Shown: in pieces, positions 14,101 to 31,901 of the stretch | Numbering within the stretch: the stretch's first letter is position 1 | Layout of the letters: each line of letters begins with the position of its first letter | IMG/VR virus record: IMGVR_UViG_3300017697_000052 | Coordinates: 1-32,967 of that record | Source of the DNA: a virus | Length of the DNA: 32,967 nt | Reading direction: 5' to 3' (one strand) | Notes under the pieces: model-generated | The model's database searches: none | What the model was told of the DNA's origin: nothing | What the model saw: the letters and a program-made list of their open reading frames with translations, nothing else | Position numbers and translations under genes: made by a program

Positions 14101-17100
14101 CGATGATGGTTTTGATTATGATGTAACAGATACTACTTCCGAAAAAGGTAGAATATCTAAAATAAATATCATGAGAAGATTGGTTTCAACTGATTTTCTT
14201 GAAGAAAATGATATATCATCCGATAATCCAGCTATATTTGAAGTTGAGCCTAAAGAATCTATAGATTTAGACATATACAATGAAGTTGGTAGTGCTTTGC
14301 CTATAGTTAAAACTGGATTAAAAGTAACTGGTACAAATATAGCTGCTAACACAAAAGTTGACACATATAAGCTAGAGTCAGATGTTATTATATTAGATAC
14401 AAATACAACTGGTAGCATATCAGCTGGAACAGTATTAACTCTAACAGACCCTAAAGGTATTTATAGCTTTAAAATAAAAACTAGTGGTACGGTCTCCAGT
14501 GGAACAAAAGTAATAACTATAGCCGAAAGCCAAGTACATGGTCAACACCATCAATTAGATTTTTCAAATTGCTATAGCTTTGGTCAAGGAGTTGAATCTA
14601 ATAGACTTAGGGATGATTATAATGCTATAACTATAGACAAAGGACCAGTTGTATCTACCATTATTAATGAAAAATATAAGCAAGACGTGAAGCTAAATAC
14701 CATAATTTGGTCTGGTATATTTAATTCAACTGGTGGTGTTAATAAATTAAATGAATTTATTCAAGCTGAAAAAATAACAAAAGATTTAAATCCTGAATAT
14801 GGTAGTATTCAAAAACTGCATGTTAGAGACACTGATTTAATAGCTCTATGTGAAGATAAAGTTTTAAGAATATTAGCTAACAAGGATGCTTTATTCAATG
14901 CAGATGGAAATACAAACTTAACATCAACTAATAATGTATTAGGTCAAGCCATGCCTTTTGTTGGTGAGCATGGTATATCTAAAAACCCAGAATCATTTGT
15001 GTCGCACGCTTATAGGGTTTATTTTTCAGACAAAGCAAGAGGATCTGTTTTAAGGCTGTCTAGAGATGGTCTAACAGATATAGCTACTAAAGGTATGACA
15101 GATTGGTTTAATGACAACCTACCACTGTCTAATTCAATTGTAGGATCTTATAATCAAAAGAAAGGATCTTATAATTTAACATTAAACAACTACACACTTT
15201 GTTTTGACGAAAGAGTTGATGGTTGGACTAGTTTTAAATCATTCATACCTGAATCAGGTGTATCATTAAATAATGTTTATTACACATTTAAAAATGGATA
15301 TTTATATTCACACAATAATAAAAGAAGAAATTCATTTCATCAAACACTTGCTAAAGTTATTTCTACTAATAGTGGAAATAATAAGATAGTTAATATATCT
15401 AGTCAACCAAGTGTTGAAAATATAAATATTGGTGATTATTTGTTAAGTTCTGAAGTTGATAGTGATATAACCGTAACTTCAATAGTAATACCTTATGTTT
15501 CTACTGGTACTGTAAATGGTGCAACTAGCACAAGTGTTAATGTAGCTGTTGACGGTAATTCTGGTACTATATCTGTTAATGATATAGTTACCGGAACAGG
15601 TATAGCAAGTAATATAACTGTTAAAGTAGCATCCGTAACTGATCAAAACAATATAGTTTTAGATACAGCCTTGAGCCTGTCTAATGAAACAGTATTAAGT
15701 TTTACTGGTACATCGCCAAATAAAACTCTAGATACTGTTGTTACATTTTCTTCAGCGCCTGCATTGTCTAATAGCTCTAATATAGAATTCACTAAAACAT
15801 ACGACTCATCGGTTACCTTACTTATTAATGATGAACCATCTACTATAAAAGAGTATAAGACACTTTCTTATGAAGGTACAGATTCTAAAGCATATACATA
15901 TTCCGGTACAATATCTGTTGATGCTGCGGGTAATTCGCTAAGCTCTAACATAACGATAGCTGCTGGAACACCGTTATCTGATTTACAAAAATATAAATAT
16001 AATGCTAATCAAATAGCACAACTAACGGAATCTGTTGTTACTGGTTGGAGTAGCACATCCATAACCACAGACTCTCAAAGTGGTAGCGTTAAACTTTTTA
16101 AGAACAAAGAAGGTTTATGGAGTAATTCAATATCGGGTGATGCAACATCGGCATCAAATATAGATACTAGAGAATTATCTGTTCAGGGTTTAGGTGCGTT
16201 TTCAACTATAACAGGTGCAACCTCTCCTACTCAAGCTGAGTTAACGATATCTCTAGCTAACTCTACACCAAATCATAACACAGACATATCAGCAACTAAA
16301 ACAATAAATGGTCTAGCTAATGGCGCTAATATAAACAGTACTTATGGAACTTTAGATTTAATTATATATGCAACAATAGGGTATAGCTTAGATGCTTCAA
16401 ACTTTGCTTTTAGTAGTGCCTCAGGAGTTAGTGGTGCAGGAGTTAGTGGTATTTCATTTACTCAACATGGTATCAATGTAAAAGCCACTATAACATTTAG
16501 TGGGGTAATGCCATCTTCAGATGATGCGATGTTAATAACTATAACTGGAGAAGCAATCGCTAATACTTATACTGTAGATGGAACATACGACACTATTGAA
16601 GATAATACAACAACTGGATCTAGCGATAGTATTGCTTATTCTGGAAGCGGTGTTTATGATAAGAAAACTGTTGCTAATGCAAGCACAGATCCAGTAACAT
16701 ATACTAGTGTTCCAGAAGATGTATTCATAAAAACATTTACTGCAAATGCTAATCATTTTTTTTATACTAGACCAGTTGTTTTTATAGAAGAAGAAGATAG
16801 TAGTTCAGTTAGTGCTTATACTATAACATGTCCTTGGGCAATAACTACTGCCACTGTTAATGGAGCCGTAAACGGTACAAGTGTTACACTAGACGCTGGA
16901 CACTCAGGCATAGCCATTGGCATGGCAGTTACTGGGGTAGGTTTAGGTCAAAATTGTAGGGTTTCTTCTATAAGTTCTAATACATTAGTGTTAACATCAT
17001 CTAAGATAATACCAGATGGTGCCACATTAACCTTTACACCAACGTCTGTTACTTTTACAGTAAAGTATGTTTATGGTATAAATAATCCTAAATTTGATAA

Positions 17101-19240
17101 ATTAGTATTTACAGCTAAAGCTATTGAGGTATTTGACCCCGGTATATCAGAATTAACTTCTTTTGTTAGTGGTAATAAAACAATACTAAGTGGTGGAGAA
17201 AGTAGAACAATGGTAATACAAGGTTCAACTGGTTATGATGATGAAACAAATGCTACTTTTACTTTTTCAAACGAAGCATCAGGAACAGCTGTTACTTTTA
17301 CGGCAACCTCTGACAATACTACTGCAACAGCTACTTTTAGTGATTATGTTGGCACAGTAAGACCTGGAATGAGTGTTTCTGGAACAAATGTTCCTGCTGG
17401 TACGGTTGTTAGTTATGTTGTTGTAAATCCAACTACTAATTCTACGACAGTTCATGTTACACTTGCTAATGCTGTAACCTCTACTCCATCAGGAGTAATA
17501 ACATTCGCTGAATACTATAATAGTTCTAACTCTAGTTGGCAATCAACACCTTATATTATAACACTACCTGAAATAGGTAGATTATCTATAACAAAAGTTT
17601 ATAATCCAACAACATCAACTAGTTACTATAGATATTTTATTAGAGCTATTGATGCATTAGTTGGAACTCACACTAATTTATCATCTAGCTTTTCAGGTAA
17701 TGCTGTTTTAGATTCTAGTAACGACTTCGCTTTATGTGAGGTTAACCAATACGAAAAACCAACCATAAACATAAATGCAACCTCTAATATAGTTGATTCA
17801 ACAAGCGCTGCTATTAATATAAGAAACTTAGATAGTATAGTTACTGTAGGTACCGCTACAGCTAAGGTTAACGTTGTTGGAGGAACCAGCGCATCTACAG
17901 CGGTAGTTGTTGATAATAATATTGGAACTATACAGGCTGGATTTTTTGTAACAGGAACTGGAATTGTTGGAACGGTCACGGTTGAATCTTTATCTGACCA
18001 ACAAAATTTGGTTTTATCTTCTAATCAAACGATAGCAGATAATGTAGATTTAACATTTAGTGGAGCTGCTGCAAATTCTAAAACAATAATTCTCGCATCA
18101 GGCAACACAGAAATAAAAATTGGTATGTTAGTAACTGGTACTAACATATTAGCAAAAACTAGAGTTAAAAGTATAAGTGGTACAACTTTAACTATAGATC
18201 AAACACCAACCTTGGCACCATCAGATGAACTTAAATTTTTGGATAATGGTCGGTATGAAGCTTATGGTGAACCGAATTCTGGTTCAATATACTCTAAAAT
18301 ACCTTTTAAAGTAGTGGCGAGTGTTGGTGGATCAACAGAATTGTCTAAGCAAAGAGATATAAGTATAGAAGATGATTTTCAATACAGTGAAACAACACTT
18401 TTTGCTTCTTCAGTATCTAGTACTGTTGTTGGTTTTTCTAGTACAGTACCACAATCTATTGTTGTTGGCTCTATCATTACATCAAATAGTATAACATCTA
18501 GTTATTCTAATAATGTTATTACTGTTGCTGCTATAACATCTACAACGCAAATAACATTAGCTCTTGATGGTATAACTTTAAACGGTACAAATAGCCATGG
18601 TACAAGTACGGCTAGTAGCGTAAGTACGTATGTTACAGTAAATGATGAACTTACTTTTTCTGCTCCATACTCTTGGGATATTAGTTTAAGTAATTTAAGC
18701 GAAGCTATAACAGGTAGCAATAAAATATATACATTAACCGGTTTAATGTCAGTTGCTAGATATGGTAATCAAAATTTACCAATAGGTTTAAATCTAGATA
18801 ATATATTAGCTAGAACTAGTACTAGTGGTGGAAGTGGTGGATCCACAACAAACTATATATTTATAGAAAAAATATTTAGTACAAGTTATTATATTTCTAG
18901 CTTGGTAATGTATCCTAAGTCAGTTGCTGTAGGTACCACAGCAGGAACAGTTATAACTTTTACTGGTAGTGTTTTAGGCAACTGGTATGGTAATGCTATG
19001 AGTGGTATTAAAATGTATCTAGGATCTGCAACAGGGTTTAATGATGCAAGTGGTGGTAGTTTAACTTTTGGAGAAGCTGGAGATGTGCAAGCATCAATAA
19101 TATCTACATTAACTTTTGCTAACTCAAGTCCTACGACGACCGGTGGTACTTTTTCTTTTGATCTACAACTAGCTGCTACAGCTGCAGCGGGTCAAACTTT
19201 AACAATAGAGCCAAGAATATACTTACCAATTCAACCTTAA
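11174..19240 (+). CDS. Giant tail/stabilisation protein with repeat-rich C-terminal extension
   Basis: This is a 2688-residue virion protein. Its N-terminus carries the block GRMNKDLDERLLPNGEYRDA followed by QNVEIVTSEGSDVGSIQN, typical of 'stabilisation/tail tubular'-type proteins of marine podoviruses. A second conserved block lies around residues 1170-1310 (IQKLHVRDTDLIALCEDKVLRI, NADGNTNLTS, GEHGISKNPESF, YFSDKARGSVLRLSRDG). These parts probably build the head-proximal tail tube or nozzle. From about residue 1430 to the end the chain is Thr/Ser/Gly/Val-rich beta sequence with at least five copies of a ~60-residue module (see repeats) and no enzyme motif; it looks like an exposed fibre or adhesin. 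No separate tail fibre gene was found, so this region may bind the host. Start ATG at 11174 follows the previous stop by three bases. Confidence 0.78.
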   Translation: MPEFKHHFRRGRMNKDLDERLLPNGEYRDAQNVEIVTSEGSDVGSIQNVLGTVLGRGRLYDESTQVLTEWSADSNFFDLINPTCIGSFVDTQNDNIYWFIHYSFLNDSKIVINGSAIIEYDDTTKVIQPILVDINNILKFSSNYLITGINVIDGLFFWTDNQTEPKRINISKFKEGTVVGSDQFKVQTKYLGATGSDFTEKDITVIKLSPNIKPKLNLSASKRTGVGTGNQPITVQSHSESFRTAEGDAGVSRPNGYDLFLVFPLAPNYKDRDILKLSYTDSNALEGDVSYEILVQVTKGENSFKKTFVKIQSIPDEVPYGTNLPWEVVLLEDEPLFEDKFVRFSYRWKYIDGEYSTFAPFSNIAFLPSDFEYKSSDGYNTGMINTARQIEIQSLETPPVGVVEVDLLYKESNNNNVYVVDRIKTEDLSTEFPYEIKSEIVGDVVESNQMLRPWDNVPLRAKSQEISSNRVLYGNYTQGYDIENNRLPDIKTTHNSIDITTVGTPEKSIKSQRTYQVGVVYLDPYSRETPVFSKKEAAVTISKEYADKVNSLSCELNNNAPNFATHFKHFVKETSSEYYNIALDRYYLAEDGNIWLSFPSSERNKVSEEDYLILKKKHDKSVFVSVDNESPNPNAKYKILDIKNEVPEFIATELKSKALATVKCRVDNNILLNEPLAKAISFQFLGPTDVQNPSFYNSFSSDAKIVITTIEAGNDIGSTKRYKLSKGGPTGKQESSLEIYEVTLTESIRDIDKNVFATYKNDDTIDTSYLIDGSNNAIDFKIEVLEKESINKAQFFGRFFAKINRDVVFDENIIETFPAATTEYASVRNVSVISNATSDPDDDKKDSDVDWCWTDTNPSNPYDKNYANHPELGSNKFTVYLAGVDLPGDKSDKNNKFEDVVTQPVSKDLRTTGTLIQFENANGNKGSVYKIKNSEVATGWRSKKDSRRKRTSGRRREFTITIEKVTNDITNKNKNYDDGFDYDVTDTTSEKGRISKINIMRRLVSTDFLEENDISSDNPAIFEVEPKESIDLDIYNEVGSALPIVKTGLKVTGTNIAANTKVDTYKLESDVIILDTNTTGSISAGTVLTLTDPKGIYSFKIKTSGTVSSGTKVITIAESQVHGQHHQLDFSNCYSFGQGVESNRLRDDYNAITIDKGPVVSTIINEKYKQDVKLNTIIWSGIFNSTGGVNKLNEFIQAEKITKDLNPEYGSIQKLHVRDTDLIALCEDKVLRILANKDALFNADGNTNLTSTNNVLGQAMPFVGEHGISKNPESFVSHAYRVYFSDKARGSVLRLSRDGLTDIATKGMTDWFNDNLPLSNSIVGSYNQKKGSYNLTLNNYTLCFDERVDGWTSFKSFIPESGVSLNNVYYTFKNGYLYSHNNKRRNSFHQTLAKVISTNSGNNKIVNISSQPSVENINIGDYLLSSEVDSDITVTSIVIPYVSTGTVNGATSTSVNVAVDGNSGTISVNDIVTGTGIASNITVKVASVTDQNNIVLDTALSLSNETVLSFTGTSPNKTLDTVVTFSSAPALSNSSNIEFTKTYDSSVTLLINDEPSTIKEYKTLSYEGTDSKAYTYSGTISVDAAGNSLSSNITIAAGTPLSDLQKYKYNANQIAQLTESVVTGWSSTSITTDSQSGSVKLFKNKEGLWSNSISGDATSASNIDTRELSVQGLGAFSTITGATSPTQAELTISLANSTPNHNTDISATKTINGLANGANINSTYGTLDLIIYATIGYSLDASNFAFSSASGVSGAGVSGISFTQHGINVKATITFSGVMPSSDDAMLITITGEAIANTYTVDGTYDTIEDNTTTGSSDSIAYSGSGVYDKKTVANASTDPVTYTSVPEDVFIKTFTANANHFFYTRPVVFIEEEDSSSVSAYTITCPWAITTATVNGAVNGTSVTLDAGHSGIAIGMAVTGVGLGQNCRVSSISSNTLVLTSSKIIPDGATLTFTPTSVTFTVKYVYGINNPKFDKLVFTAKAIEVFDPGISELTSFVSGNKTILSGGESRTMVIQGSTGYDDETNATFTFSNEASGTAVTFTATSDNTTATATFSDYVGTVRPGMSVSGTNVPAGTVVSYVVVNPTTNSTTVHVTLANAVTSTPSGVITFAEYYNSSNSSWQSTPYIITLPEIGRLSITKVYNPTTSTSYYRYFIRAIDALVGTHTNLSSSFSGNAVLDSSNDFALCEVNQYEKPTININATSNIVDSTSAAINIRNLDSIVTVGTATAKVNVVGGTSASTAVVVDNNIGTIQAGFFVTGTGIVGTVTVESLSDQQNLVLSSNQTIADNVDLTFSGAAANSKTIILASGNTEIKIGMLVTGTNILAKTRVKSISGTTLTIDQTPTLAPSDELKFLDNGRYEAYGEPNSGSIYSKIPFKVVASVGGSTELSKQRDISIEDDFQYSETTLFASSVSSTVVGFSSTVPQSIVVGSIITSNSITSSYSNNVITVAAITSTTQITLALDGITLNGTNSHGTSTASSVSTYVTVNDELTFSAPYSWDISLSNLSEAITGSNKIYTLTGLMSVARYGNQNLPIGLNLDNILARTSTSGGSGGSTTNYIFIEKIFSTSYYISSLVMYPKSVAVGTTAGTVITFTGSVLGNWYGNAMSGIKMYLGSATGFNDASGGSLTFGEAGDVQASIISTLTFANSSPTTTGGTFSFDLQLAATAAAGQTLTIEPRIYLPIQP
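14289..14450 (+). repeat. Divergent copy of the virion beta module, inside the tail core
   Basis: Translated, this segment reads LPIVKTGLKVTGTNIAANTKV, then VIILDTNTTGSISAGTVLTL, the same 'GxxVTGTxIxxxTxV ... xIxLxxxxx...GxxLTLT' pattern as the modules at 15502 and beyond. It lies within the first half of the 2688-residue protein (about residues 1038-1092), away from the C-terminal array. Confidence 0.5.
15502..15710 (+). repeat. Virion beta module, C-terminal array copy 1
   Basis: The module (residues about 1443-1512) shows TVNGATSTSVNVAVDGNSGT, IVTGTGIASNITVKVASVTD, NNIVLDTALSLSNETVLSF. The pattern is 'V-x-GA-T..V.VD-..GTI..GD.VTGTGI...-TV..V.D..N.VLD..L....TVL.F'. It most resembles copies at 17864 and in the neck protein at 9379. 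Confidence 0.65.
16422..16450 (+). repeat. Short 15-base tandem repeat
   Basis: CAGGAGTTAGTGGT occurs at 16422-16435 and again at 16437-16450, a 15-base period coding SGVSGAGVSG in the tail protein. The period is a multiple of three, so loss or gain of a unit keeps the frame. Confidence 0.7.
16850..17044 (+). repeat. Virion beta module, copy 2
   Basis: Residues about 1892-1957 read ATVNGAVNGTSVTLDAGHSG, IAIGMAVTGVGLGQNCRVSS, NTLVLTSSKIIPDGATLTF. Same layout as copy 1, with the VTGxG turn and an alternating hydrophobic strand pattern. Confidence 0.6.
17325..17510 (+). repeat. Virion beta module, copy 3 (divergent)
   Basis: The segment contains VGTVRPGMSVSGTNVPAGTV, then TTVHVTLANAVTSTPSGVIT. 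The PGMSVSGTNVPAG core closely matches PGMTVTGTGVPSG in the neck protein encoded at 9083-10030. Confidence 0.6.
17864..18062 (+). repeat. Virion beta module, copy 4
   Basis: It reads KVNVVGGTSASTAVVVDNNI, GTIQAGFFVTGTGIVGTVTV, ESLSDQQNLVLSSNQTIADN and VDLTFSG, clearly homologous in layout to copy 1 (VASVTDQNNIVLDTALSLSN). Confidence 0.65.
18078..18240 (+). repeat. Virion beta module, copy 5
   Basis: Directly after copy 4, this shorter unit reads KTIILASGNTEIKIGMLVTG, TNILAKTRVKSISGTTLTID, then SDELKFL. It keeps the GMxVTGT core and the final acidic-hydrophobic strand. Confidence 0.6.
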
Positions 19241-19634: not shown

Positions 19635-20237
19635 ATGAAATTAGAAGATATTAATACTCAAGTTAAAAAAAAGCCTCTAACAAAAGAGGAGTCTAAAGAG
19701 CAATTTATAAAACTAACAAGTGAGTTAGATATAAAACATAGCTTTGATTTTGAAGAAGCGTGGGAGATAGGTGAAGAGATAAGGAAAAGAAAAGATTTTA
19801 GAGAAAAAATTACGGATCTTGAAAAAGAAGGTTTTGATAAACAAATTTGGGATAGTAAAGAACATAGTGATAAGTTAAACCCAGTTAAGCATAGTTTTGC
19901 GAATGGCTGTTATATTAGAGAAATATTTAATCCTGCGGGTGAATTAATAGTAACTGCAATACATAAAAAAGAACATCCATTTTTTTTAATGCAAGGAGAA
20001 ATGTCAATATTGACAGAAGATGGTATAAAACATCTCAAAGCTCCACACCATGGCATAACAAAACCAGGTACAAAAAGAATTATATACACACATACTGATT
20101 GTATATTTATAACAGTACACGCAACTGAGGAAACTGACGTTGCTAAAATAGAAGAGCAAGTTATTGCTAAGGATTTTCAAGATCCTTTAATAACGCAGGA
20201 AGATATGAAGTTATTAACTAAAATAGATAAGACATGA
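19635..20237 (+). CDS. Cupin-fold protein
   Basis: This 200-residue protein has a helical charged N-terminal half (to about residue 80) and a C-terminal cupin barrel. Cupin motif 1 is seen as H110-x3-H114 followed by FFLMQGE with E122; motif 2 is PGTKRIIYTHTDC with H153. Three His and a Glu would make the usual metal site. Before it comes CYIREIFNPAGELIVTAI, the first strands of the barrel. Cupins may be enzymes, sugar-binding or structural proteins, and the sequence does not say which. It lies between tail and ejection-type genes and its stop overlaps the next start (ATGA), so it is co-expressed late. It could be a virion part or an assembly helper. The start at 19635 is in an A/T-rich leader. 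Confidence 0.72.
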   Translation: MKLEDINTQVKKKPLTKEESKEQFIKLTSELDIKHSFDFEEAWEIGEEIRKRKDFREKITDLEKEGFDKQIWDSKEHSDKLNPVKHSFANGCYIREIFNPAGELIVTAIHKKEHPFFLMQGEMSILTEDGIKHLKAPHHGITKPGTKRIIYTHTDCIFITVHATEETDVAKIEEQVIAKDFQDPLITQEDMKLLTKIDKT

Positions 20238-20971
20238 GTTTTGTAGTAGGATCAATAATAATAGGTGGAGCCATCGCGGGTGGAGGAGTGGCTACTGGTT
20301 TAATTGGAAGAGGAGCTAAAAAGCAAGAAGTAGCAGAGGCTGAAGCTGACAGACGAAGATTAAAGAATGAATATAGTCAAATGGATAATTCTAATCTTTA
20401 CGCTGGTTTTCAAAATAGCATGCAAAATCTTAGCGTAAATACTCAACAAGCACAATTTCAACAGCAGCAACAAAGACAGAGTCAAGCTAACATATTATCA
20501 GCTTTAAGAGGATCTGCTGGTAGCTCTGGTATAGCAGGTTTAGCACAAGCGCTTCAAGGACAATCTAATTTAGCTGCCCAACAGTCTTCTGCATCGATAG
20601 GCATGCAAGAGCAAAGAAACCAAATGGCTTCTGCACAAGGAGAAATGCAAGCACAACAAATTAGAATGGGTGGTGCTGCTCAAGCTAGATCGCTTAAACA
20701 ACAACAGTTAGCTACTCAATATGGAATAGCAATGCAAAGAGAGGGTGCAGCAAATGAAGTTCTAGCTCAGAATGATGCTCAAATGATGGACACTGTTATG
20801 GAAGGAGTTGGCATGGCTGCCGGTGGTGTTGCACAGGGTTATAGCGACGGTACTTTTGGTGGTGGTGGACCTAGTACAGCAAAAATACGCAGACAAGCTG
20901 GAAGAGCTGAAAAAGAATATCTAAAAAGCATTGGTGGAGGTAATAATACTGGATCAGTAGGTCAAGGTTAA
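20234..20971 (+). CDS. Probable small internal virion (ejection) protein, T7 gp14-like by position
   Basis: This 245-residue protein starts with a glycine/isoleucine-rich hydrophobic stretch (VVGSIIIGGAIAGGGVATGL, residues 4-23) that could insert in a membrane. The remainder is rich in Gln, Ala and Met, with a helical NLSVNTQQAQFQQQQQRQS region and a Gly-rich end (GGGGPSTAKIRR, GGGNNTGSVGQG). In T7-like phages the first ejected protein is a small, hydrophobic, Ala/Gln-rich protein encoded before two larger ones, and the same order holds here. The function (forming a pore in the cell envelope for DNA entry) is inferred from that analogy. The gene overlaps the cupin stop by four bases. Confidence 0.6.
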   Translation: MSFVVGSIIIGGAIAGGGVATGLIGRGAKKQEVAEAEADRRRLKNEYSQMDNSNLYAGFQNSMQNLSVNTQQAQFQQQQQRQSQANILSALRGSAGSSGIAGLAQALQGQSNLAAQQSSASIGMQEQRNQMASAQGEMQAQQIRMGGAAQARSLKQQQLATQYGIAMQREGAANEVLAQNDAQMMDTVMEGVGMAAGGVAQGYSDGTFGGGGPSTAKIRRQAGRAEKEYLKSIGGGNNTGSVGQG

Positions 20972-20986
20972 TAAATATAAAATATT

Positions 20987-22498
20987 ATGGCAAAATCAAG
21001 ACGAAACTCTTATAGTAATAGAAGACAAACATCTGACAGCTCTTTAATACAAAGCGCAGGTAGCATGTATAGGGCTAAAATCCCATATCAAGCAGATCCT
21101 GTTGGAAGTTTTTCTAGAGCATTTAAGTCAACCTATGAGGAGATACAAGTTAAAAAAGATGCTGATTATGCTAAAGTAGAGTTAGAAATGGCCGAACACT
21201 TAGATGAGTTTGGTGAATTAAAAGAGTTTTCCAATGGTTTGTCATCAGAAAAAAAAGCTCAAATAACTCCATGGATTAGAGCTAGAAGAGATGAACTGTA
21301 TGATGCTAAGAAAAGATTGCATGAAGCTAAACCTAAAGAAAGAGATTCTATAAGAGCCGAAATAGATGACATTATGAGTACAGTTGAAAACTCAGCTAAA
21401 ACCAATAGTGATATGATTACGTATTTTAACTCTGTAGCTGGAGCTAAACTAGGTAATGGTAATGGCATGATATCACCAGAAAATTCTAAAAATACTCTTA
21501 AAAATATGCTTGGTCAGGGTGCTGTATTTAATTCAGAAGATGGGACTTGGGAGTATGAAAAAGGTATGTATCAAGTTGCTGAGGAAGAAAGAGTCGAGAT
21601 AATGGAAAACTTTGCTCAAGGACTTAAGTTTGGTCAAGATAATGTAGCTGCTTACCCAACTGAAAAAGAAAGAGAAAATTGGAGAACATCGGATCAAGGT
21701 GTATTACAAAAAGCTTCTTTTAGAAATTTATTAAATGAAAATGCTGTTGTATCAATGCTTTTTGATAAGCACGGGTTTAACGATGGTGGTTATTTTAATG
21801 CAACCTTATTTGCTTTAAAACAATTGGAAAACCCAAAAAAAGAAGATATACTAAAACTTAACGAATATGATGATAATTTATCAAAGCTTAGGATGGGTAG
21901 GGGTACAGAAGAGTATAATCAAGCTATAGAATATTTTAGAGAAGAATTAGCCACTAAAATGATGGATCAATTTAATTTATCTGTTCAAAGGGGTTTTAAG
22001 TTAGGTACTATAAAACCTGAAGATCAAGAATTTGATTACGAGGTTGAAACGGGTATTGAGTCTCTTGATGAAAAAAATTATTTTACTGAAAACATAAAAT
22101 CTCCATTTACTAAAAAAGATGAAAACGGAAGAGTTATATTAAAAACAACTTCTGAGCTTTTTGACCCTAAAGATGAATTTACTTTAGATGAAATAGAACA
22201 AGAAATAAGAAAGTATGATGGATTAGACGAAAAAGATGACATATCAATAATACAGTATTCAAGACAGGTTGGTGGTATTCCTAAAAATCCAGAATATCCA
22301 GATGCTATAGAAGTTATTACTACTATCAATACAATGATAGAAGATCCAAATGATAAAACTAAAAACGAAACTATTAAAAAGAGATCGTCAAGAAAATATA
22401 GTAGTCTATCTAAATTCATAGAAAATATGAATGAGAAAAAATTGATATATAAAAGAAATATAGCTAGCGCTCAAGTTAGATCAAATCCTACAAAATAA
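20987..22498 (+). CDS. Probable internal virion protein, gp15-like by position
   Basis: I do not recognise the family. The protein has 503 residues, is mostly charged and helical, and has no membrane segment. It has a basic start (AKSRRNSYSNRRQ), a coiled segment around residues 85-125 (ARRDELYDAKKRLHEAKPKE) and a Gly-poor acidic C-terminal half (LDEIEQEIRKYDGLDEKDDI). It lies between the gp14-like gene and the giant gene, with gaps of 15 and 7 bases, the place of T7 gp15 in the ejection set. A structural or ejected role is likely from context only. The start is TATTATGG after an A-rich leader. Confidence 0.5.
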   Translation: MAKSRRNSYSNRRQTSDSSLIQSAGSMYRAKIPYQADPVGSFSRAFKSTYEEIQVKKDADYAKVELEMAEHLDEFGELKEFSNGLSSEKKAQITPWIRARRDELYDAKKRLHEAKPKERDSIRAEIDDIMSTVENSAKTNSDMITYFNSVAGAKLGNGNGMISPENSKNTLKNMLGQGAVFNSEDGTWEYEKGMYQVAEEERVEIMENFAQGLKFGQDNVAAYPTEKERENWRTSDQGVLQKASFRNLLNENAVVSMLFDKHGFNDGGYFNATLFALKQLENPKKEDILKLNEYDDNLSKLRMGRGTEEYNQAIEYFREELATKMMDQFNLSVQRGFKLGTIKPEDQEFDYEVETGIESLDEKNYFTENIKSPFTKKDENGRVILKTTSELFDPKDEFTLDEIEQEIRKYDGLDEKDDISIIQYSRQVGGIPKNPEYPDAIEVITTINTMIEDPNDKTKNETIKKRSSRKYSSLSKFIENMNEKKLIYKRNIASAQVRSNPTK

Positions 22499-22505
22499 AT
22501 TAAAT

Positions 22506-25500
22506 ATGGCAAAACAACAACTACTTGTTGACGATTCTGATCAAGTAACTCAAGATGCTTTAAATATAATTCCTGATGATTTGGTTTTTAAGCAAAGCCT
22601 TGATGAAACTTTACGTAGGTTTAGTAACACTAATTTGTTATATGAGAAAACAGATGAATTATTAAATCCTTCTCAAATAGTTAAAACAGATGCTCCTAGA
22701 AAAGAAACACCTCAATTTGATTTATCTGAGGAAGAGTATAAAGCTTTGCCAGAAGAAGAAGTTTTTGTAAGTGATGGATTAAATTATCCTGATATACAAT
22801 ATGATTTTGAAAAACCAAAACCAGATCCATTAATTAGTGATGCTGAAATAATATTAAAAAGAAATGATTTAGTAAAATTAGCTACTAAAAACTATATAAA
22901 AAGTAGAAGCTTAAATGACGAATCTGAGTTATCTCCTGAAGATAAGGCTAATATTATTGTCGAAGCTGAAAATCTGTTTAGACAAGAGCTAACATATGAT
23001 AATATATTAAAAAAAGCAGTTAAAAAAGCTAGAAATATTTCTGAAGAAGAAAAACAAAAACTAATAATAGCAGATTCTAGTATAAAAAAATACAAAGCAG
23101 ATACTAATTTTAAATTAGATTCTATTAATACCAGCATAGAAAATATTGATATTAAGTATGATTCTCTTATTAATAAATTAACACCTATAAATAAGGAAAT
23201 AAAAAACATAGAAAAAAAACAAACAGATTTAAAATCAAATATATCTAACTTATACAAACAATCAAAAGCTGAGTTAGAAGTAGTGAATTTAAATTTAAAA
23301 GAGTTAGATGAGCAAGGTAAATTAATAGTTAGCCAAGAATACGCTACAGAAGAAGTGCATAACGCTGCTGCAGAAAGTTTAAATCAAATAAATCTAGCTA
23401 TAAATGAAGGTGTTAAAAAAAGAGATTTAATAATAAATAGTCTTAAACAAAAAGAATCAGAAGTTGCTTTAGAATTTAATTCTTTAGCTGATTCAATAAA
23501 ATCAAACTTTAAAACTATAGGTGTAAACGAGGATGGAACAGAAATACCAAATTCTTTAATATATAATTTAAATAATTTATCATCAGAAAGAAAAGCAAGT
23601 ATAAAAGCTTTTAATGATATAATTTATAACAGTAACAAGTATAGCTTTGAAGACGAACTTGAAGTTACTCAACTATTAAAAGAACTAGATAAAGAATATA
23701 ACATAGGTACTCTTTTTGCTAAAGAACTTCTTACATCAACAGCTGAGTTGGCTGTAAACTTTGGGCTTGGTGTTAAAGCTTTTACATTTGACTTAGCTTT
23801 AAAAAATGACCCTTTATATAATGTTAAATCTCAGTTACTAGAAAAAGAATTAGATGACTTTTTTCAAGAAACCAAATCAGCTTTTAGACAACCTATAGCA
23901 TTTAGAGATATAGAAAATGCTTATGATTTTGCTGATTGGTTAGGTCATTTAACCTCTACACAAGCACCTCAATATGCTGTTTTATATGCCACTAGAGGTT
24001 TAAGCGGTATAAGAGCAGCTAAAGCATTATCAACCGCTACAAAAGCCCAACAGACAGCTCGAGCGGCAAAAATAGCGTCGGCTAACCTAGCTTCTAGACA
24101 CGCTGGATTATCATTTTTAAGTATGGGTTCTGCTGGTAGTACAATTAGATCAGCTAAGCAAGAAATTAGAAACGGTGCAGATTATAGTGATTTACAATTA
24201 TATACAGCTGCTGTTATTAGCTTTGGAGCTGAATATACTAGTGAATTATATACATCAAAACTAATTAGTGGAGAAACATTTAAAGCATTTAAAACCGACG
24301 CTTTTAAAAAAGGATTTGTAGGTTGGACTAAAAATAAATTCAAAGCTAATAATATGATAGCTGGTGGCTTAGACTTATCAGGTGAAGGTTTATCTGAAGT
24401 TTTTGCTGAGAGCATAGGTAGTAATTTTGTTGATAGATATATATACGGGAAAAAAGACGTTAGTTTATTTCGTAATATTGATGAAGCTTTTATTAGTGGT
24501 GTATTTATGGCTGGTGCTATCTATAAGATGCCAGCTATGGCTCACGATGCTATAAAAGGATTTGTACCAACAGATAACCTTAAGGTTTATAATAATAACA
24601 AAAAAGAAATTGAAAAATTATCTTTTAATATATCTAACAATGAATTAACAATTCAAGAAATAGAAATTGCAGAAAAAAGAATTTCTAAGTTAGTCATGGA
24701 AAACAACAATCTTGTTTCAGACGTAATTACGGTTATTGATGAAATGAGTAATGAAGATAAAAGAGCATTACTAGACGTAGAATTAGAATTAAATGAGGCT
24801 GAAGTAGAATTAGATGAAATATCTAATTTAGATAAAATAGATATCATTTCTTTAGATATTCAATCGAAGATTAAAACTAAGATAAAAGATCTTAAAGAAA
24901 AAAATAATCAAATAGCAATAAAATACTATAAACAATTAGGTAGTAATAAAGCTAAAATAATAAAAAATCAAGCAAAAAAAATATATGGTGACGAGGTTAT
25001 AGTTAGAAGCTCTGATAGCTTAGAAGACCTACAGAGACAAGTAGAGCTTGATTTAATAGAAGAATATACCTATGGCTTAGAAGAAGGAACAGAACCTTAT
25101 GACAAAGCAATTATTAAAGCTAAGTCAGAATCAGAAAAAAGAAGTATAGGTAAAGATGCTTTTATTACAAGCGTTGAGCAAGGTGCTAATAGAGGTAAAG
25201 ATATAATATATATAAATAATAGTCCTGAGTTAGTATCTATAAATGTTAATGCCGCTGCACATGAGTTTTTACATAAATTACTACAAGCTACTTTAAAAAG
25301 TAATCCATCAGCTGCAAGAAAAATATCTGTTAATCTAAAAAGTTATATTGATAAAATAGATAAATCATTGATAAATGATGAAAGTTTTTCTAAAAGACTA
25401 GAAAGTTATAGTAATTTTTATAAAGATAAGATTGATAATGTAAAAATAGAAAAAGAAATATTAGAAAAGTTAGAGTCAGCAGTTTATGCTCCAGTAATAA

Positions 25501-28500
25501 AAGAAAAAATAATAGAAGCTAAGAATAAAATAGCAAGTTTAAATTCAGATTTAGCCGAAGAAACAATGACATTGTTTTCTGATGCTTTAGCAAATAAAAA
25601 CATTAAGTATGAAGAAAATAGTTTTACAAAAGTAACTGATTCTGTTAGAAGAACATTTCAAGATCTTGGTTATAAAAAAATAAAATTTAATACTGGTGAA
25701 GATGTTTTTAATTTCATAAGAGACTACAACGATGCTATTAAGTCTGGTAACTTGGGCAGTGCTTTTATAAAAGTAGGAAAAGAGGGTGTTGAAGGAAAGC
25801 TTATAGATACGAAAAGAAAAACTACTAAAAAAACTAGCTCAATTAAATACAGTAAATCTTTTAAAGATAACGTTAAAAGAAAATTTAATAACGTATCTGA
25901 AAAAGAAGCATTGCCAGATAGAGATGTATGGCCATCTGAAAACAATGAAAGAAAAGGTAAGTTAGCACTAGAAATTGCAAAATTGTACGAGGGTACTTTA
26001 GTTAGTAGCTTAAGACCTGGTCAGTTTGAAATATTAAGAAAAGAAGGACTTGTTGAGGAGTTTAAAGAAGATGCTAAAACTAATTTATCAATACATATAC
26101 TTAATTTTAATTCAGATAAAAACGATAACATACATGGTTGGATTAACTCTCAAGTAGCTAACAAAGCACAAGATGCAATTAAAGGTCTTGGTATAGAATT
26201 AGAAACACTTCCATTAGGTGAAACTGAAAAACAAATACCTGAACAACAGAGTGAAATAACAACACAGGAAAGACAAGAAGAAGAAAAAGCTTTACAAAAT
26301 ACAACATTAAAGCAAAACATATCTGTAACCGCTAAGTCAGAAACAATGACAGAGTTAAGGAGTATAGTTGGTGGTGTTTTAAATGACTTAAACATAGGTG
26401 CTAGAGAGGTTGATTCTACAAATAAAGTTAGTGACTTTGTAGCTATATTAAAAGAAAGAATACAAGGTAAAAAACCTGGTACAGCTTTTAAATTATTAAG
26501 AAAAGCTTTTAAGGTAGGTAATTCTACCATGCCTCAATACAGAGATAACTTAATAAAAAATAAAGAAGCAATACTAAAAGGTTTAACGACTAGTTATTTA
26601 TCAAGAGCTTTTCCACCTGCTATAGAAAAAAGAATTATAACTGAAGATGGTGGTACTAAGTTTGTTAAATCTGAAGAGTGGTTAAAGATACCTAAAAAAA
26701 ATATAGGTAAAAAACCTGGTTTTATAGACATAAGAAGTACTAAAGAAGAAGGTTATGAGGGTGATACTACTGGTAAGCAAGCCATGCGTAGAGTTGAAAA
26801 CATATCAGAAACTATATCTGATGAGGTTTTTCTAGCTAAGTACATAGTAAATAACAAAGTACCTCAAATGCCATCAGAGATGTTAATGCAACAGCTTGCT
26901 GGTGAAATTGGTTTAGATATATTTCAAGAAGAAATAAATAAGTTTGATGAGTTTAATGATGCTTTAGAAAAAGCTGTTTTAAAAGGTGAATCTGTAGAAG
27001 AAATAATTAATAGTGACAGATTTAAAATAATTAGCTCTTTCGTAGATAATCAAAAATTATTAAAAAATGTAATTATAGAATCTACTATATCAAACTTAAC
27101 AAAGCAACTAGAAAGAGGTACAACAAAGTATTCTATGTTTAGTGATAGTGATATCACTAAGTTAAACTTATTCTTTAATGAAACCGCAGAAATAATAAAT
27201 CAAAAAGACAAATCTCAAAGAAAAATAGATTTTTATAATCTACTAAATGATCAAGATGAATTTATTAAAGATTTCTACAAGCAAGTAGTAAGCGAAGGTT
27301 CTATGATAAAAGACAATAGAGCTTTTGGAACAGTTGTTGAAATAGAAAATAATTTAAAGTTTAAGATTGCAGTTCAAGAAAGTGAAGTTGATATAAACAT
27401 TAATAATGAAGTTTCTTCTTCCAATAGTGTTAAGGGAGATATATTTTTTAATGTAGATGGTAATAAAGATGAAGTTAAGATAATAGAGTCTAAAAGTTCT
27501 TTTTTTGATGAATTTAGTGGAGCAACGGCTGGTATAAAATCAAACGGTTATCTTGGTATTAATGCACCTAAATATTTAAAGCAAGGTACTTGGGTTGAAG
27601 AAGCACTTAAGGAAATGGGATCACCATCAGATAAACAAGGTGTGCCTTACACTAAAAAACAACAATTATCTGATAAACTTCAAAAACAATTAGATGAAAT
27701 TATAGAACAAAAAGAGTTTGAATATTTTAAAGAAAACAATAAAATAGCTGATATAATAAATAATATTTTAATTAACGTTAATTCTTCTATAAATGAATTT
27801 ATAGAAGAGTATAACAATGCTGCATCAAAAATACTAACACCTGAACAATACAAAAATCATAAAAAAACATCTTTAAAAAGAGAACAATTTATATATGATA
27901 TAGTAGAAAACGATAAAAATGTAAAAAAAGCATTAAGTAAAATAAGCAAATTAGGCGTATTTAAACCAGAAGGAAATACAGAATTATTTAATGCCGTAGA
28001 GCAATTGTATGTTAACGCTGGAGTTGATACTATAGTAATAAACAATATATTATATGCTTTAAAAGATGGAATTGATGGTTTGCAAAGAATAAGCATTGGT
28101 AAAAATGGAAATCATATTTCTCCTGGTTTAAACTTTCAGTTATATTTAAAAAGAGCAGGAGGTGGTCCTAATGTAACAAAAATAAATGGTAAGAATAATA
28201 AAGTTTATGAATTAAGAAGTTACAGCATATCAACAATATTCAAAATACCATCAAAAGATATTAAAATATTAAAAGAAAAAGAAAAAATTAATACTAATAA
28301 TATACAGAGTGCAGAAGTAGCTCAAAAATTATATAATCATTATTCAGTAAAAAATTCTTTAACTCAAGATGTACCAATGGATCCATCTTTTGTTAACGCT
28401 AACTTTGCTAATAAAAAAGCTATAATAGTAGTTGGTGGTATTGGCTCAGGTAAAACAACTATAATAAACAAAATAATTGATAAGTTAAATCTTAAGGAAT

Positions 28501-31076
28501 TAGGTTTTAATATTGTAGATGAAGATGTAGAAAGATCAAGAATACAGCAAGACAAAACTGTAAGTAAAGCTAGTGCTTATCAAAATGCAAGAAAATCTGT
28601 TAAAAAAAGATTAAATGATTTATCTAATAATGGAGATGGAATAATATATGATAATGTTGGAGGTAATAGAGATTTAACTACAAAAAAAGTTAATGAATTA
28701 AAATCCAAAGGATACGATGTATCAATGATACTGGTTGATACAAATGTTGAAATAGCTAAAAAAAGAGATTCCTCTAGAGAGAGAAGCTTAGGTGAATTTA
28801 TGGTTGAGTTTAGTAATGGATTAATTGATAGAAGAAAAGACTTGTATGCTAAAGATTTTGAAGGTAGCTTTTCTATAATTAATACAGATAATTTAAATAT
28901 AAAAGACCCATTACCTAGTAATTTCCTTGAACAAGTTAAGAGTAATATAAAATACTCTTTCAATGAGGAAGAGTTAGATAATAAATTCAACAATATAATA
29001 CAAGAAACAAAAGGTGTAAATGCTGATAAGACATTTTCAGATACAATAGCTTCTTTAAAAGGCGCAGGAATAGGTAAGTATAAATTTTTTGTACCACCAT
29101 CTGCAGATGATTTTATGGGTTTAATGTATGCTTTTATGGGTAAAGGTAAGATTGGTGAAGTTCATAAAGACTTTATTGAAGCTGCATTAAATGGACCATA
29201 CAAAAGAGGTGTTGCTGCTTTAGAATCTTCTAAGCAGAAAATGGAAAATGATTACAAAAAACTCAAGAAAAAATACCCTAAAGTTGCAAAAAAACTAGGT
29301 AAAAAAATACCTAATAGTGAATTTACTTATGATCAAGCTATAAGAGTTTATTTATGGAAATACAACAATGAGATATTTAATTCTAAACTAGAAGAAGAAC
29401 TTGGTTTAACCACTAGTGAGATTAATGAATTATTTTTCACCGTAACAGAAAGTAGAGAATTACAACAATATGCTAGAGGCCTAGGAAAACTAACTGGATT
29501 ACCAGAGGGTTATATAGAACCTAGTAGAACTTGGTTGTTAGAAACAATAGCTAGTGATTTAAATGATATATCTGATAAGGTAAGTAGAAAAAAGCATTTA
29601 GCTGAGTTTATAGCTAATAAAGAAGCCATCTTTAATAAAGATAATTTAAACAAGATTCAAGCTATATATGGTACTACATTTAGATCAGCATTGGAAGATT
29701 CTCTATATGCTATGACAAATGGTACTAGCCGTAATTTTGGTGATAATGAAATAGCTAATAGGTTTGCTAATTGGTTGAATGGTTCTGTTGGAGCTATCAT
29801 GTTTTTTAATGCTAGATCAGCTGCTTTACAGTTAATATCAAATGTAAACTACTTAAACTGGAGTGATAACAATGTATTACAAGCAGCAACTGCTTTTGCT
29901 AATCAAAAACAATTTTGGACAGATTTTACTACTATAATAATGTCTGATAAACTTAAGCAAAGACGTAAGGGTTTAAGTACAGATGTTCAAGCTGCTGAAC
30001 TAGCTAATAGCGTAGCAACTTCTAAAAGTAAGTATAAAAGTGCTTTAAGGTATTTGTTAAGAATAGGTTTTACACCTACTCAAGCTGCAGATGCTATAGC
30101 TATATCTTTTGGTGGTGCTGCTTTTTATAGAAATAGAATTAATTCAAAAATTAAAGAAGGTAAATCTAAAGAAGTAGCTGAAAAAGAAGCTTGGCGTGAA
30201 TTTTCTGATATAACCGATGCAACACAACAGTCAGCTGATGCCGCTATGATATCTCAACAACAAAGAAATCCTTTAACTAGATTTGTTTTAGCTTTTCAAA
30301 ATACTTCTATGCAATACAATAGAGTTATGAAAAAGTCTTTTTTAGATCTAATTAATAGAAGAGGTAATGACAAAGAAAACATATCAAAAATAATTTACTA
30401 TGGAGCAATTCAAAATATAATATTTAATGGCGTTCAGCAAGCGATGTTTGCTATGATATGGGGTGATGATGAATCAGATGAAAAAGAAAAACAAAGATTT
30501 TTTAATCTAGGCAATGGTATGATGGATACAATTCTTAGGGGTTCGGGTTGGAAAGGTGCTGTTGTTGCTGCTCTCAAAAACACTATAATTAGATACCAAA
30601 AAGAAGAGGCTAAAGGTAGTTTTAAAGCTGATCACTTAAATACAGCTATAACATTACTTAATGTTGCACCTTCCATAGGATCTAAATTTACTAAAGCTTA
30701 TGGAGCTTATAAGAGTAATTATTATGAAAGAGATGTTATAAAGGAAAAAGGTTATTCTTGGGATAGTCCTATATGGATGGTTTATGGAAAAACAGCATCC
30801 GCAGCTTTTAATATACCAGCTGATAGAGTTGTAAGTAAGGTAGATAATTTAGTTATGGCTTCTAAAAGTTATACTGAAAATTGGCAAAAAGTAGCATTAT
30901 TGTCTGGTTGGAGTTCTTGGTCTCTTGGGCTTAAAAATAAAGAGAATGAAATTATAAAAGCTAAGGGTAAAGAACAAAGAAAAATATTGGGCATTGAAAA
31001 AGCAAAAGAAACTAGAAGAAAAAATAGTGCTGGAAAAAGAAGAGCAAAACAAATTAGAGATGCTTTTAATAATTAA
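22506..31076 (+). CDS. Giant multi-domain ejected-type (polyvalent) protein: Zn-peptidase, nuclease-like, P-loop kinase
   Basis: This 2856-residue protein is the last of the ejection-type set. Visible parts in order: an acidic N-terminus; a coiled-coil stretch about 190-275; hydrophobic helices about 560-680 (LYTAAVISFGAEYTSELY); a zinc-peptidase motif HEFLH at 919-923 with possible third ligand E1018 or E1019 (LAEETMTLF); a candidate PD-(D/E)XK site with D1645 (KGDIFF) and E1661-x-K1663 (IIESKSS); a Walker A GGIGSGKTT at 1977-1985 followed by NIVDEDVERSR and KKRDSSRERSLGE, like zeta-toxin or AAA_33 kinases; and a long helical C-terminus ending in Lys/Arg-rich helices. Large phage and conjugative proteins with such mixes are known as polyvalent proteins, injected with the DNA. 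Peptidase and kinase motifs are clear; the nuclease is tentative; injection is inferred. Confidence 0.72.
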   Translation: MAKQQLLVDDSDQVTQDALNIIPDDLVFKQSLDETLRRFSNTNLLYEKTDELLNPSQIVKTDAPRKETPQFDLSEEEYKALPEEEVFVSDGLNYPDIQYDFEKPKPDPLISDAEIILKRNDLVKLATKNYIKSRSLNDESELSPEDKANIIVEAENLFRQELTYDNILKKAVKKARNISEEEKQKLIIADSSIKKYKADTNFKLDSINTSIENIDIKYDSLINKLTPINKEIKNIEKKQTDLKSNISNLYKQSKAELEVVNLNLKELDEQGKLIVSQEYATEEVHNAAAESLNQINLAINEGVKKRDLIINSLKQKESEVALEFNSLADSIKSNFKTIGVNEDGTEIPNSLIYNLNNLSSERKASIKAFNDIIYNSNKYSFEDELEVTQLLKELDKEYNIGTLFAKELLTSTAELAVNFGLGVKAFTFDLALKNDPLYNVKSQLLEKELDDFFQETKSAFRQPIAFRDIENAYDFADWLGHLTSTQAPQYAVLYATRGLSGIRAAKALSTATKAQQTARAAKIASANLASRHAGLSFLSMGSAGSTIRSAKQEIRNGADYSDLQLYTAAVISFGAEYTSELYTSKLISGETFKAFKTDAFKKGFVGWTKNKFKANNMIAGGLDLSGEGLSEVFAESIGSNFVDRYIYGKKDVSLFRNIDEAFISGVFMAGAIYKMPAMAHDAIKGFVPTDNLKVYNNNKKEIEKLSFNISNNELTIQEIEIAEKRISKLVMENNNLVSDVITVIDEMSNEDKRALLDVELELNEAEVELDEISNLDKIDIISLDIQSKIKTKIKDLKEKNNQIAIKYYKQLGSNKAKIIKNQAKKIYGDEVIVRSSDSLEDLQRQVELDLIEEYTYGLEEGTEPYDKAIIKAKSESEKRSIGKDAFITSVEQGANRGKDIIYINNSPELVSINVNAAAHEFLHKLLQATLKSNPSAARKISVNLKSYIDKIDKSLINDESFSKRLESYSNFYKDKIDNVKIEKEILEKLESAVYAPVIKEKIIEAKNKIASLNSDLAEETMTLFSDALANKNIKYEENSFTKVTDSVRRTFQDLGYKKIKFNTGEDVFNFIRDYNDAIKSGNLGSAFIKVGKEGVEGKLIDTKRKTTKKTSSIKYSKSFKDNVKRKFNNVSEKEALPDRDVWPSENNERKGKLALEIAKLYEGTLVSSLRPGQFEILRKEGLVEEFKEDAKTNLSIHILNFNSDKNDNIHGWINSQVANKAQDAIKGLGIELETLPLGETEKQIPEQQSEITTQERQEEEKALQNTTLKQNISVTAKSETMTELRSIVGGVLNDLNIGAREVDSTNKVSDFVAILKERIQGKKPGTAFKLLRKAFKVGNSTMPQYRDNLIKNKEAILKGLTTSYLSRAFPPAIEKRIITEDGGTKFVKSEEWLKIPKKNIGKKPGFIDIRSTKEEGYEGDTTGKQAMRRVENISETISDEVFLAKYIVNNKVPQMPSEMLMQQLAGEIGLDIFQEEINKFDEFNDALEKAVLKGESVEEIINSDRFKIISSFVDNQKLLKNVIIESTISNLTKQLERGTTKYSMFSDSDITKLNLFFNETAEIINQKDKSQRKIDFYNLLNDQDEFIKDFYKQVVSEGSMIKDNRAFGTVVEIENNLKFKIAVQESEVDININNEVSSSNSVKGDIFFNVDGNKDEVKIIESKSSFFDEFSGATAGIKSNGYLGINAPKYLKQGTWVEEALKEMGSPSDKQGVPYTKKQQLSDKLQKQLDEIIEQKEFEYFKENNKIADIINNILINVNSSINEFIEEYNNAASKILTPEQYKNHKKTSLKREQFIYDIVENDKNVKKALSKISKLGVFKPEGNTELFNAVEQLYVNAGVDTIVINNILYALKDGIDGLQRISIGKNGNHISPGLNFQLYLKRAGGGPNVTKINGKNNKVYELRSYSISTIFKIPSKDIKILKEKEKINTNNIQSAEVAQKLYNHYSVKNSLTQDVPMDPSFVNANFANKKAIIVVGGIGSGKTTIINKIIDKLNLKELGFNIVDEDVERSRIQQDKTVSKASAYQNARKSVKKRLNDLSNNGDGIIYDNVGGNRDLTTKKVNELKSKGYDVSMILVDTNVEIAKKRDSSRERSLGEFMVEFSNGLIDRRKDLYAKDFEGSFSIINTDNLNIKDPLPSNFLEQVKSNIKYSFNEEELDNKFNNIIQETKGVNADKTFSDTIASLKGAGIGKYKFFVPPSADDFMGLMYAFMGKGKIGEVHKDFIEAALNGPYKRGVAALESSKQKMENDYKKLKKKYPKVAKKLGKKIPNSEFTYDQAIRVYLWKYNNEIFNSKLEEELGLTTSEINELFFTVTESRELQQYARGLGKLTGLPEGYIEPSRTWLLETIASDLNDISDKVSRKKHLAEFIANKEAIFNKDNLNKIQAIYGTTFRSALEDSLYAMTNGTSRNFGDNEIANRFANWLNGSVGAIMFFNARSAALQLISNVNYLNWSDNNVLQAATAFANQKQFWTDFTTIIMSDKLKQRRKGLSTDVQAAELANSVATSKSKYKSALRYLLRIGFTPTQAADAIAISFGGAAFYRNRINSKIKEGKSKEVAEKEAWREFSDITDATQQSADAAMISQQQRNPLTRFVLAFQNTSMQYNRVMKKSFLDLINRRGNDKENISKIIYYGAIQNIIFNGVQQAMFAMIWGDDESDEKEKQRFFNLGNGMMDTILRGSGWKGAVVAALKNTIIRYQKEEAKGSFKADHLNTAITLLNVAPSIGSKFTKAYGAYKSNYYERDVIKEKGYSWDSPIWMVYGKTASAAFNIPADRVVSKVDNLVMASKSYTENWQKVALLSGWSSWSLGLKNKENEIIKAKGKEQRKILGIEKAKETRRKNSAGKRRAKQIRDAFNN

Positions 31077-31119: not shown

Positions 31120-31437
31120 ATGGCTCAAGAATTAGGATCAGGAACAAATGTGGGGGTTGACGTGGATGGGGATGGTAAGCCTGACTTTCATTTAACACTA
31201 AAATCAGTGGCTATGATAGTAGCTGCCGTTTTTACATTAGGTAGCATGTATGTAAAGCTACAAATGGATATAGATGACGCAAAGCTTTTGCCACCAGCTT
31301 CTATTGATAGGACTGAATATGATTTAAAACAACAGTGGTTTGAAGATCATATAGATGACTTAGAAGAAGATGTTAAGGATTTACAGCAACACGTAGAAAA
31401 ACTAAGTGATAAACTGGCAAATAAAAAAGATAGATGA
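31120..31437 (+). CDS. One-TM coiled-coil protein, holin/spanin-like candidate
   Basis: This 105-residue protein has a single likely membrane helix at about residues 28-46 (LKSVAMIVAAVFTLGSMYV), followed by a charged helix that looks like a coiled coil (about 68-102, DLEEDVKDLQQHVEKLSDKL). Before the membrane helix is the loop DVDGDGKPD (D14, D16, D18, D22), which fits the EF-hand-like calcium motif DxDGDGxxD. The stop overlaps the start of a DUF5675-type gene (ATGA), which suggests a lysis pair: a holin, or a spanin-type protein. It could also be a small virion membrane protein. The 43-base gap before it contains no obvious terminator or hairpin. Confidence 0.6.
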   Translation: MAQELGSGTNVGVDVDGDGKPDFHLTLKSVAMIVAAVFTLGSMYVKLQMDIDDAKLLPPASIDRTEYDLKQQWFEDHIDDLEEDVKDLQQHVEKLSDKLANKKDR

Positions 31438-31901
31438 AACTAGAACTAAAAAGATTTAGCGGTCAAAGTGATACAACACTGGGTTTACTTTTCCTTGATG
31501 GAGACTTTGAGTGCTTCACATTAGAGGATGAGTATCGTGCTGACAAAGTAAATGGTGAAACTAGAATACCTGCTGGAACCTATAAGGTTGAAAAGCGTGA
31601 GGTACTTAGTGGATTAACCGAGAAGTATCGTAAGAAATATCCTTGGTTTGACTTTCACTTTATGCTTCAGGATGTACCAGATTTTCAATATGTATATATT
31701 CATATAGGAAACGATGATGATCACACTGACGGTTGCCTTTTGGTAGGTGATTCAGTTAAGTCTAATAGGTTTAATGAAGATAATAACTTAACTAGCTCAG
31801 GACCAGCATTTAAGAGGTTATATCAAAAGATGAGTGATGCTGACTTTGTCAGTATTAGCGTAACCGATTGTTGTACTGAGTGTAACTGTACTTGTAACTA
31901 A
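31434..31901 (+). CDS. DUF5675-type protein, candidate lysis enzyme
   Basis: This 155-residue protein matches the DUF5675 layout: TTLGLLFLDGDFECFTLEDE, then GETRIPAGTYKV (G41-V52), then DVPDFQYVYIHIGN and the block H90-I-G-N, D99-G-C101-LLVG. The conserved His and Cys with a 'HxGN...GCLLVG' spacing resembles L,D-transpeptidase-like folds, so an action on peptidoglycan is often supposed; this is not established. It is encoded with a TM protein in overlapping frames and followed directly by small genes (TAATG overlap), which fits a lysis cassette. The last ten residues are unusual: five Cys (146, 147, 150, 152, 154) in CCTECNCTCN, maybe a metal site. Confidence 0.75.
   Translation: MKLELKRFSGQSDTTLGLLFLDGDFECFTLEDEYRADKVNGETRIPAGTYKVEKREVLSGLTEKYRKKYPWFDFHFMLQDVPDFQYVYIHIGNDDDHTDGCLLVGDSVKSNRFNEDNNLTSSGPAFKRLYQKMSDADFVSISVTDCCTECNCTCN

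Follow-up and report, generated by a model that had tools for sequence, protein, structure and literature searches.

The window analysed here, a metagenomic contig, is the whole of a linear virus record of 32,967 bases, in which terminase, portal, head and tail genes follow in order. Among these virion genes of a portal-terminase phage lies a real open reading frame of 2856 amino acids on the + strand (22506..31076). It is preceded on the same strand by two smaller genes, the first in a gp14-like position (20234..20971, 245 aa) and the second in a gp15-like position (20987..22498, 503 aa). A simple hydropathy scan of the giant protein gave no clear transmembrane segment.

Tblastn searches against cultured phages with the whole giant protein and with its C-terminal part returned no match. 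Relatives were found via TerL and portal instead, which match 87 records, from Flavobacterium elemo phages, Cellulophaga phages of the Pervagoviridae and Pachyviridae, Tenacibaculum phage Gundel, Maribacter phage Panino and a Manatee Spring phage. The window comes from a marine Bacteroidota phage, most likely a podovirus. Scans of IMG/VR yielded 50 loci with the C-terminal domain of the giant and 61 with its gp14-like partner, and after removal of near-copies the set comprised 84 giants, six of them from cultured or named phages. A comparison of domain order among relatives, suggested with the original prediction for this DNA, found over these 84 giants a shared architecture with exchangeable parts: a variable N-terminus, a core module, a zincin, a domain resembling sigma-70 region 2, variable cargo and a conserved C-terminal domain. 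The core module, the sigma-like domain and the C-terminal domain, as delimited by sequence comparison, were absent from that prediction and are added here.

In the relatives inspected the gene order is constant: the structural set closes with the giant gene, preceded by smaller ones. In Gundel the set containing the giant lies directly upstream of the terminase. The products gp099, gp100 and gp101 of phage phi40:1 are all annotated as structural from MS/MS proteomics, as are gp120, gp121 and gp123 of phi18:3. The 245-aa protein of the window aligns with phi40:1 gp099 and with elemo, and the 503-aa protein, with an alignment identity of only 14–21%, matches phi40:1 gp100 in its place. The giants are linked by the core module, residues 533–705 (24102..24620, + strand), which is common to five of the six cultured relatives. 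A leave-out profile of residues 500–720, built solely from the window and environmental relatives, matched elemo (E 2e-24), phi40:1 gp101 (4e-23), Gundel (3e-22), phi18:3 gp123 (5e-19) and Panino (3e-16), but did not recover the Manatee Spring giant. Because this profile finds them, the MS/MS-detected proteins of phi40:1 and phi18:3 are true homologues of the core module.

Like the window giant, phi40:1 gp101 (Pervagoviridae) and phi18:3 gp123 (Pachyviridae) are the last of a three-gene set, but they are shorter (1691 and 1935 aa), have no HExxH motif and at profile level show neither zincin nor sigma-like domain, kinase or C-terminal domain, so that virion presence is carried over to the window protein via the core module alone. 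Since homologues at the same place are virion proteins sharing that module, a virion role is indicated for the giant. Its earlier assignment as third member of a gp14/gp15/gp16-like set is thus backed by synteny and by homology with phages having MS/MS-analysed virions, and the MS/MS-detected syntenic homologues likewise support an ejection-type protein, which would be packaged and ejected. Two syntenic giant genes, in PP540027.1 (28228-33717) and MW202828.1 (741-12320), carry the names 'tRNA methyltransferase' and 'reticulocyte binding/rhoptry protein'. Since the core module makes the Panino giant a homologue, its name at least looks like a misannotation.

T7 gp16, also the third protein of its ejection set, is smaller (about 1318 aa) and carries its transglycosylase at the N-terminus. 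The window giant has no detectable sequence similarity to it in PHROGs, and residues 1–859 gave no Pfam match, hence no N-terminal muralytic domain was detected. Only two relatives have such domains, an SLT transglycosylase in L052 (residues about 20–76, E 1.1e-10) and a phage lysozyme in L074 (residues about 20–149, E 1.5e-17). The contrast originally drawn with the T7 transglycosylase holds for the window protein itself but is weaker than stated, given L052 and L074. As these muralytic domains occupy the place of the T7 enzyme, the window giant is best described as a gp16-like ejection protein that would work in the manner of gp16, a functional analogy rather than strict gp16 membership.

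A zincin-like metallopeptidase domain was delimited at residues 845–1111 (25038..25838, + strand). The HEFLH motif reported earlier at residues 919–923 (25260-25274, + strand) is present, represents the HExxH of the zincin and is far from a chance occurrence, HExxH being found in 73 of the 84 non-redundant giants, in single copy in all but one of them; the other 11 giants lack it. In alignment A10 (39 rows, 14–36% identity) the only invariant columns are those of H919, E920, H923 and E1019 of the window protein, the last being the third ligand (Glu1019, 25560-25562, + strand). An invariant H, E and H with a later Glu corresponds to the zinc ligands and catalytic residue expected of a zincin. 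The domain is also present in the cultured elemo giant. In a predicted model both zincin motifs fall in helices; its structural alignment is weak (Z 5.0 to the lethal-factor zincin), and Foldseek searches against PDB and BFVD gave nothing significant. The peptidase claim is accordingly supported by the four invariant residues, the fold search of the model being weak. This agrees with the metallopeptidases of polyvalent proteins, for which processing of their own polypeptide has been proposed (PMC5512222). The zincin would most likely cut the giant polypeptide, or host proteins, after entry, and so release the other domains.

In 52 giants the zincin is separated from the cargo by a common helical domain whose pattern is I..Y.P.....L..YIN..L..R; in the window protein it covers residues about 1184–1282 (26055..26351, + strand). 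When a 41-row profile of this domain was searched against 177,635 PDB sequences, the best 60 were almost exclusively sigma factors, aligned at the same place (best E 9.8e-5). Pfam Sigma70_r2 matches three of 45 members (best 6.6e-4; next family 0.013), and hhalign gave 70% against six aligned E. coli sigma factors, compared with <0.5% for unrelated and reversed sequences. A profile built without the window finds residues 1184–1282 of the window protein at E 1.8e-11 with filters off; with default filters the window protein was missed. Because the PDB profile, Pfam, hhalign with decoys and the leave-out profile agree, homology of the domain to sigma-70 region 2.1–2.2 is likely. Pfam gave no match to other sigma regions in the window protein, hence none to regions 3–4 with their –35 recognition, and we do not class it as a sigma factor. 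The domain may dock on host RNA polymerase; region 2 of sigma-70 factors comprises helices that bind the polymerase. We put at somewhat under even odds that it merely resembles sigma region 2 and is unconnected with RNA polymerase, a reading consistent with coverage limited to region 2.1–2.2, with structural Z scores of 5–6 that lie within noise for helical domains, with the divergence of the window copy and with the lack of profile matches in cultured relatives. Such a resemblance would have to account for a profile that picks nearly only sigma factors from the PDB at one alignment place, and for the failure of decoys and reversed sequences in hhalign.

The protein ends in a conserved domain, residues 2157–2847 (28974..31046, + strand), found in 70 of the 84 giants. 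Pfam gave no family over cut-off for it and the PDB no relative, so that an identification as LPD38 is unsupported. As the sequences show, the segment preceding this domain is exchanged between relatives. In the window protein it includes an orphan cargo region, residues 1480–1965 (26943..28400, + strand), with no relative among the 84 giants or in an IMG/VR scan made with it. The D/ExK nuclease site proposed there at residues 1645–1663 (GDIFFNVDGNKDEVKIIESK; candidate at 27435-27494) was not upheld. Its letters are present, but an equally strict D/ExK pattern occurs in 47% of shuffles of the window protein, and a strict PD...ExK pattern occurs in 36 of the 84 giants compared with 32.6 in shuffles. 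The predicted model is unreliable here, with pLDDT <50 for most of the region, and hhalign of residues 1480–1968 against candidate nuclease regions of relatives reached ≤8%. An iterated search with the orphan region at E 0.05 drifted by composition and was discarded. Five relatives (L002, L011, L015, L075 and L095) have a common GYDxxSPDLQ...EAK region about 240–260 residues before the C-terminal domain, which is a better PD-(D/E)XK nuclease candidate than that of the window; it is common to the L002/L011/L015 and L075/L095 groups (hhalign 95.8%) and not to the window.

Immediately before the C-terminal domain lies a P-loop kinase domain, residues 1969–2145 (28410..28940, + strand). The predicted GGIGSGKTT Walker A motif at 1977–1985 is present and covered by Pfam Zeta_toxin (E 2.2e-12; 47.3 bits, cut-off 22.3) and AAA_33 (E 3.2e-9) over residues 1967–2094; further kinase positions are D2007xxR2010, D2049 and R2087/R2091/R2093. 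The best PDB sequence for the kinase profile is PezT (E 2.3e-4). Structural alignment of the predicted model was headed by O-phosphoseryl-tRNA kinase (Z 15.5) and Clostridium polynucleotide kinase (15.3), with T4 polynucleotide kinase at 13.6 (22% identity), and Foldseek ranked Clostridium polynucleotide kinase first (E 8e-6) and zeta second. Zeta entries are absent among the 50 structural alignments listed for the model, which excludes nothing, and related kinases score alike, so the kinase fold does not fix the substrate. Of the motif segments for which the original prediction had named fold prediction as the check, the kinase adopts a P-loop fold in its model, the zincin gave its weak match and the D/ExK segment no reliable model.

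The kinase occurs in seven of the 84 giants and a HAD phosphatase in 54, the latter mostly ending exactly at the start of the C-terminal domain; in most relatives the HAD occupies this slot by itself. In the six other kinase-bearing giants (L084:18302-19456, L092:16978-18132, L093:13065-14219, and L063, L078 and L097), the kinase is nested inside the HAD, between its DxDxT motif and the remainder, in the layout DFDDTLA...TKSGV..T.PN, then kinase, then ..EFA...FDFSEF...LTARP...DD. In the window protein the kinase occupies the same slot without HAD. A tree of the C-terminal domain groups the window with six giants that lack both kinase and HAD (clade of seven, 100/100), so the window kinase was probably an independent gain, or it was retained when HAD disappeared. 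On this tree the HAD label changes 10 times compared with 20.7 in shuffles; its distribution is clustered, yet it has been exchanged many times. The HAD profile has no match in PDB, and HAD alone matches phrog_415 best, annotated 'polynucleotide kinase'. The T4 enzyme also combines kinase with HAD phosphatase, as the six relatives do, with the kinase before the HAD and not inserted into it.

The kinase claimed earlier as zeta-like is thus real and its sequence profile is zeta-like, but in predicted fold it is closer to the polynucleotide and tRNA kinases, and in relatives it comes together with HAD. A true zeta toxin would phosphorylate a peptidoglycan precursor sugar and weaken the cell wall at entry. 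In zeta toxins the glutamate of the LIEGT strand is the substrate site; at the place aligned with it in PezT, both the window (D2049) and relatives have Asp. Together with the nesting of the kinase inside HAD in six relatives and the tRNA and polynucleotide kinases heading the structural alignment, this makes a zeta toxin rather unlikely, even though Zeta_toxin is the best Pfam family, PezT the best PDB sequence and zeta second in Foldseek, and such weakening of the cell wall during entry has been put forward as the role of zeta-like kinases in fusions with phage MuF proteins (PMC5512222). On the strength of the structural alignments, the Foldseek ranking and the HAD match to phrog_415, we prefer a role like that of nucleic-acid or tRNA kinases, with no certainty as to substrate; the most likely action of the kinase, early in infection, would be phosphorylation of 5' ends of nucleic acids or of something related.

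Zincin metallopeptidases joined to unrelated enzyme domains in one phage protein are described as polyvalent proteins, among which zeta-like kinases are known (PMC5512222). The window giant combines a zincin having HExxH and a later Glu with a P-loop kinase in one large polypeptide of a portal-terminase phage, which bears out the proposed enzyme load of polyvalent type; no LPD family was found in the giants. The suggestion that the domain mix may be undescribed needs qualification in that the general type is known, while a term search of the main text of PMC5512222 found neither sigma nor HAD phosphatase domains. What is new is the sigma-like domain and the relatives with the kinase inside HAD. 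The virion RNA polymerase of N4-like phages (Schitoviridae) is likewise a giant that is ejected, contains an HExxH domain and has two other ejection proteins as partners (PMC12633501), but the window giant gave no RNA polymerase match in Pfam or PHROG and has the sigma-like domain instead.

Our main reading, to which we assign a probability of about 0.68, is that a Bacteroidota podovirus encodes a three-protein ejection set in which this protein is the giant, carried in the capsid with a cargo of zincin, sigma-like domain and kinase, and in its predicted features a gp16-like ejection protein of the polyvalent kind. It would sit in the capsid and exit together with the DNA or before it, and its core module and two partner proteins would help it to cross the envelope. 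That the giant is purely a structural or conduit protein, its enzyme-like domains inactive relics, appears quite improbable: GKG replaces GKS/GKT in the Walker A of four of the six kinase-in-HAD relatives, HExxH is missing from 11 giants and the sigma-like domain spans only part of region 2, but the zincin catalytic and ligand residues are invariant over 39 divergent rows and the window kinase retains Walker A, DxxR and its arginines. A more elaborate version of the main reading, speculative and in its entirety distinctly doubtful, is an injected polyprotein processed by its zincin, freeing the sigma-like module for host RNA polymerase and an end-healing kinase, which in relatives is nested in a phosphatase, for repair of RNA or DNA cut by host defences. 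If so, the virion would deliver a transcription-recruitment and repair kit, and the sigma-like module would start early transcription or help to pull the genome in via the host polymerase and not an injected one.

Most of what is known about podovirus ejection proteins concerns mechanical conduits or the virion polymerase of N4. The family of at least 84 giants in Bacteroidota phages and environmental relatives, in which a conserved scaffold bears exchangeable enzyme cargo, offers a tractable set for testing what phages send into the cell along with the DNA. Recruitment of host RNA polymerase at entry would become testable through a virion protein that has a sigma-like domain, and the kinase-in-HAD relatives suggest virion-delivered end repair. 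The shared core can be tested in the cultured elemo, phi38:1/phi40:1 and phi18:3 phages, and the zincin in elemo.

Three further features of the window were recorded. Directly downstream of the giant gene, 31434-31901 encodes a DUF5675 protein (E 3e-28); small phage ORFs come next, and this may be a lysis module. A second giant ORF (11174-19240, 2688 aa) is assigned by PHROG to the virion structural proteins, and its match to the C-terminal domain of the crAss muzzle is very weak (E 0.022, below cut-off). A GroES-like co-chaperonin gene (1-597) lies close to the terminase, and genes annotated as GroES or cpn10 are likewise close to the terminase in elemo, phi18:3 and Panino.
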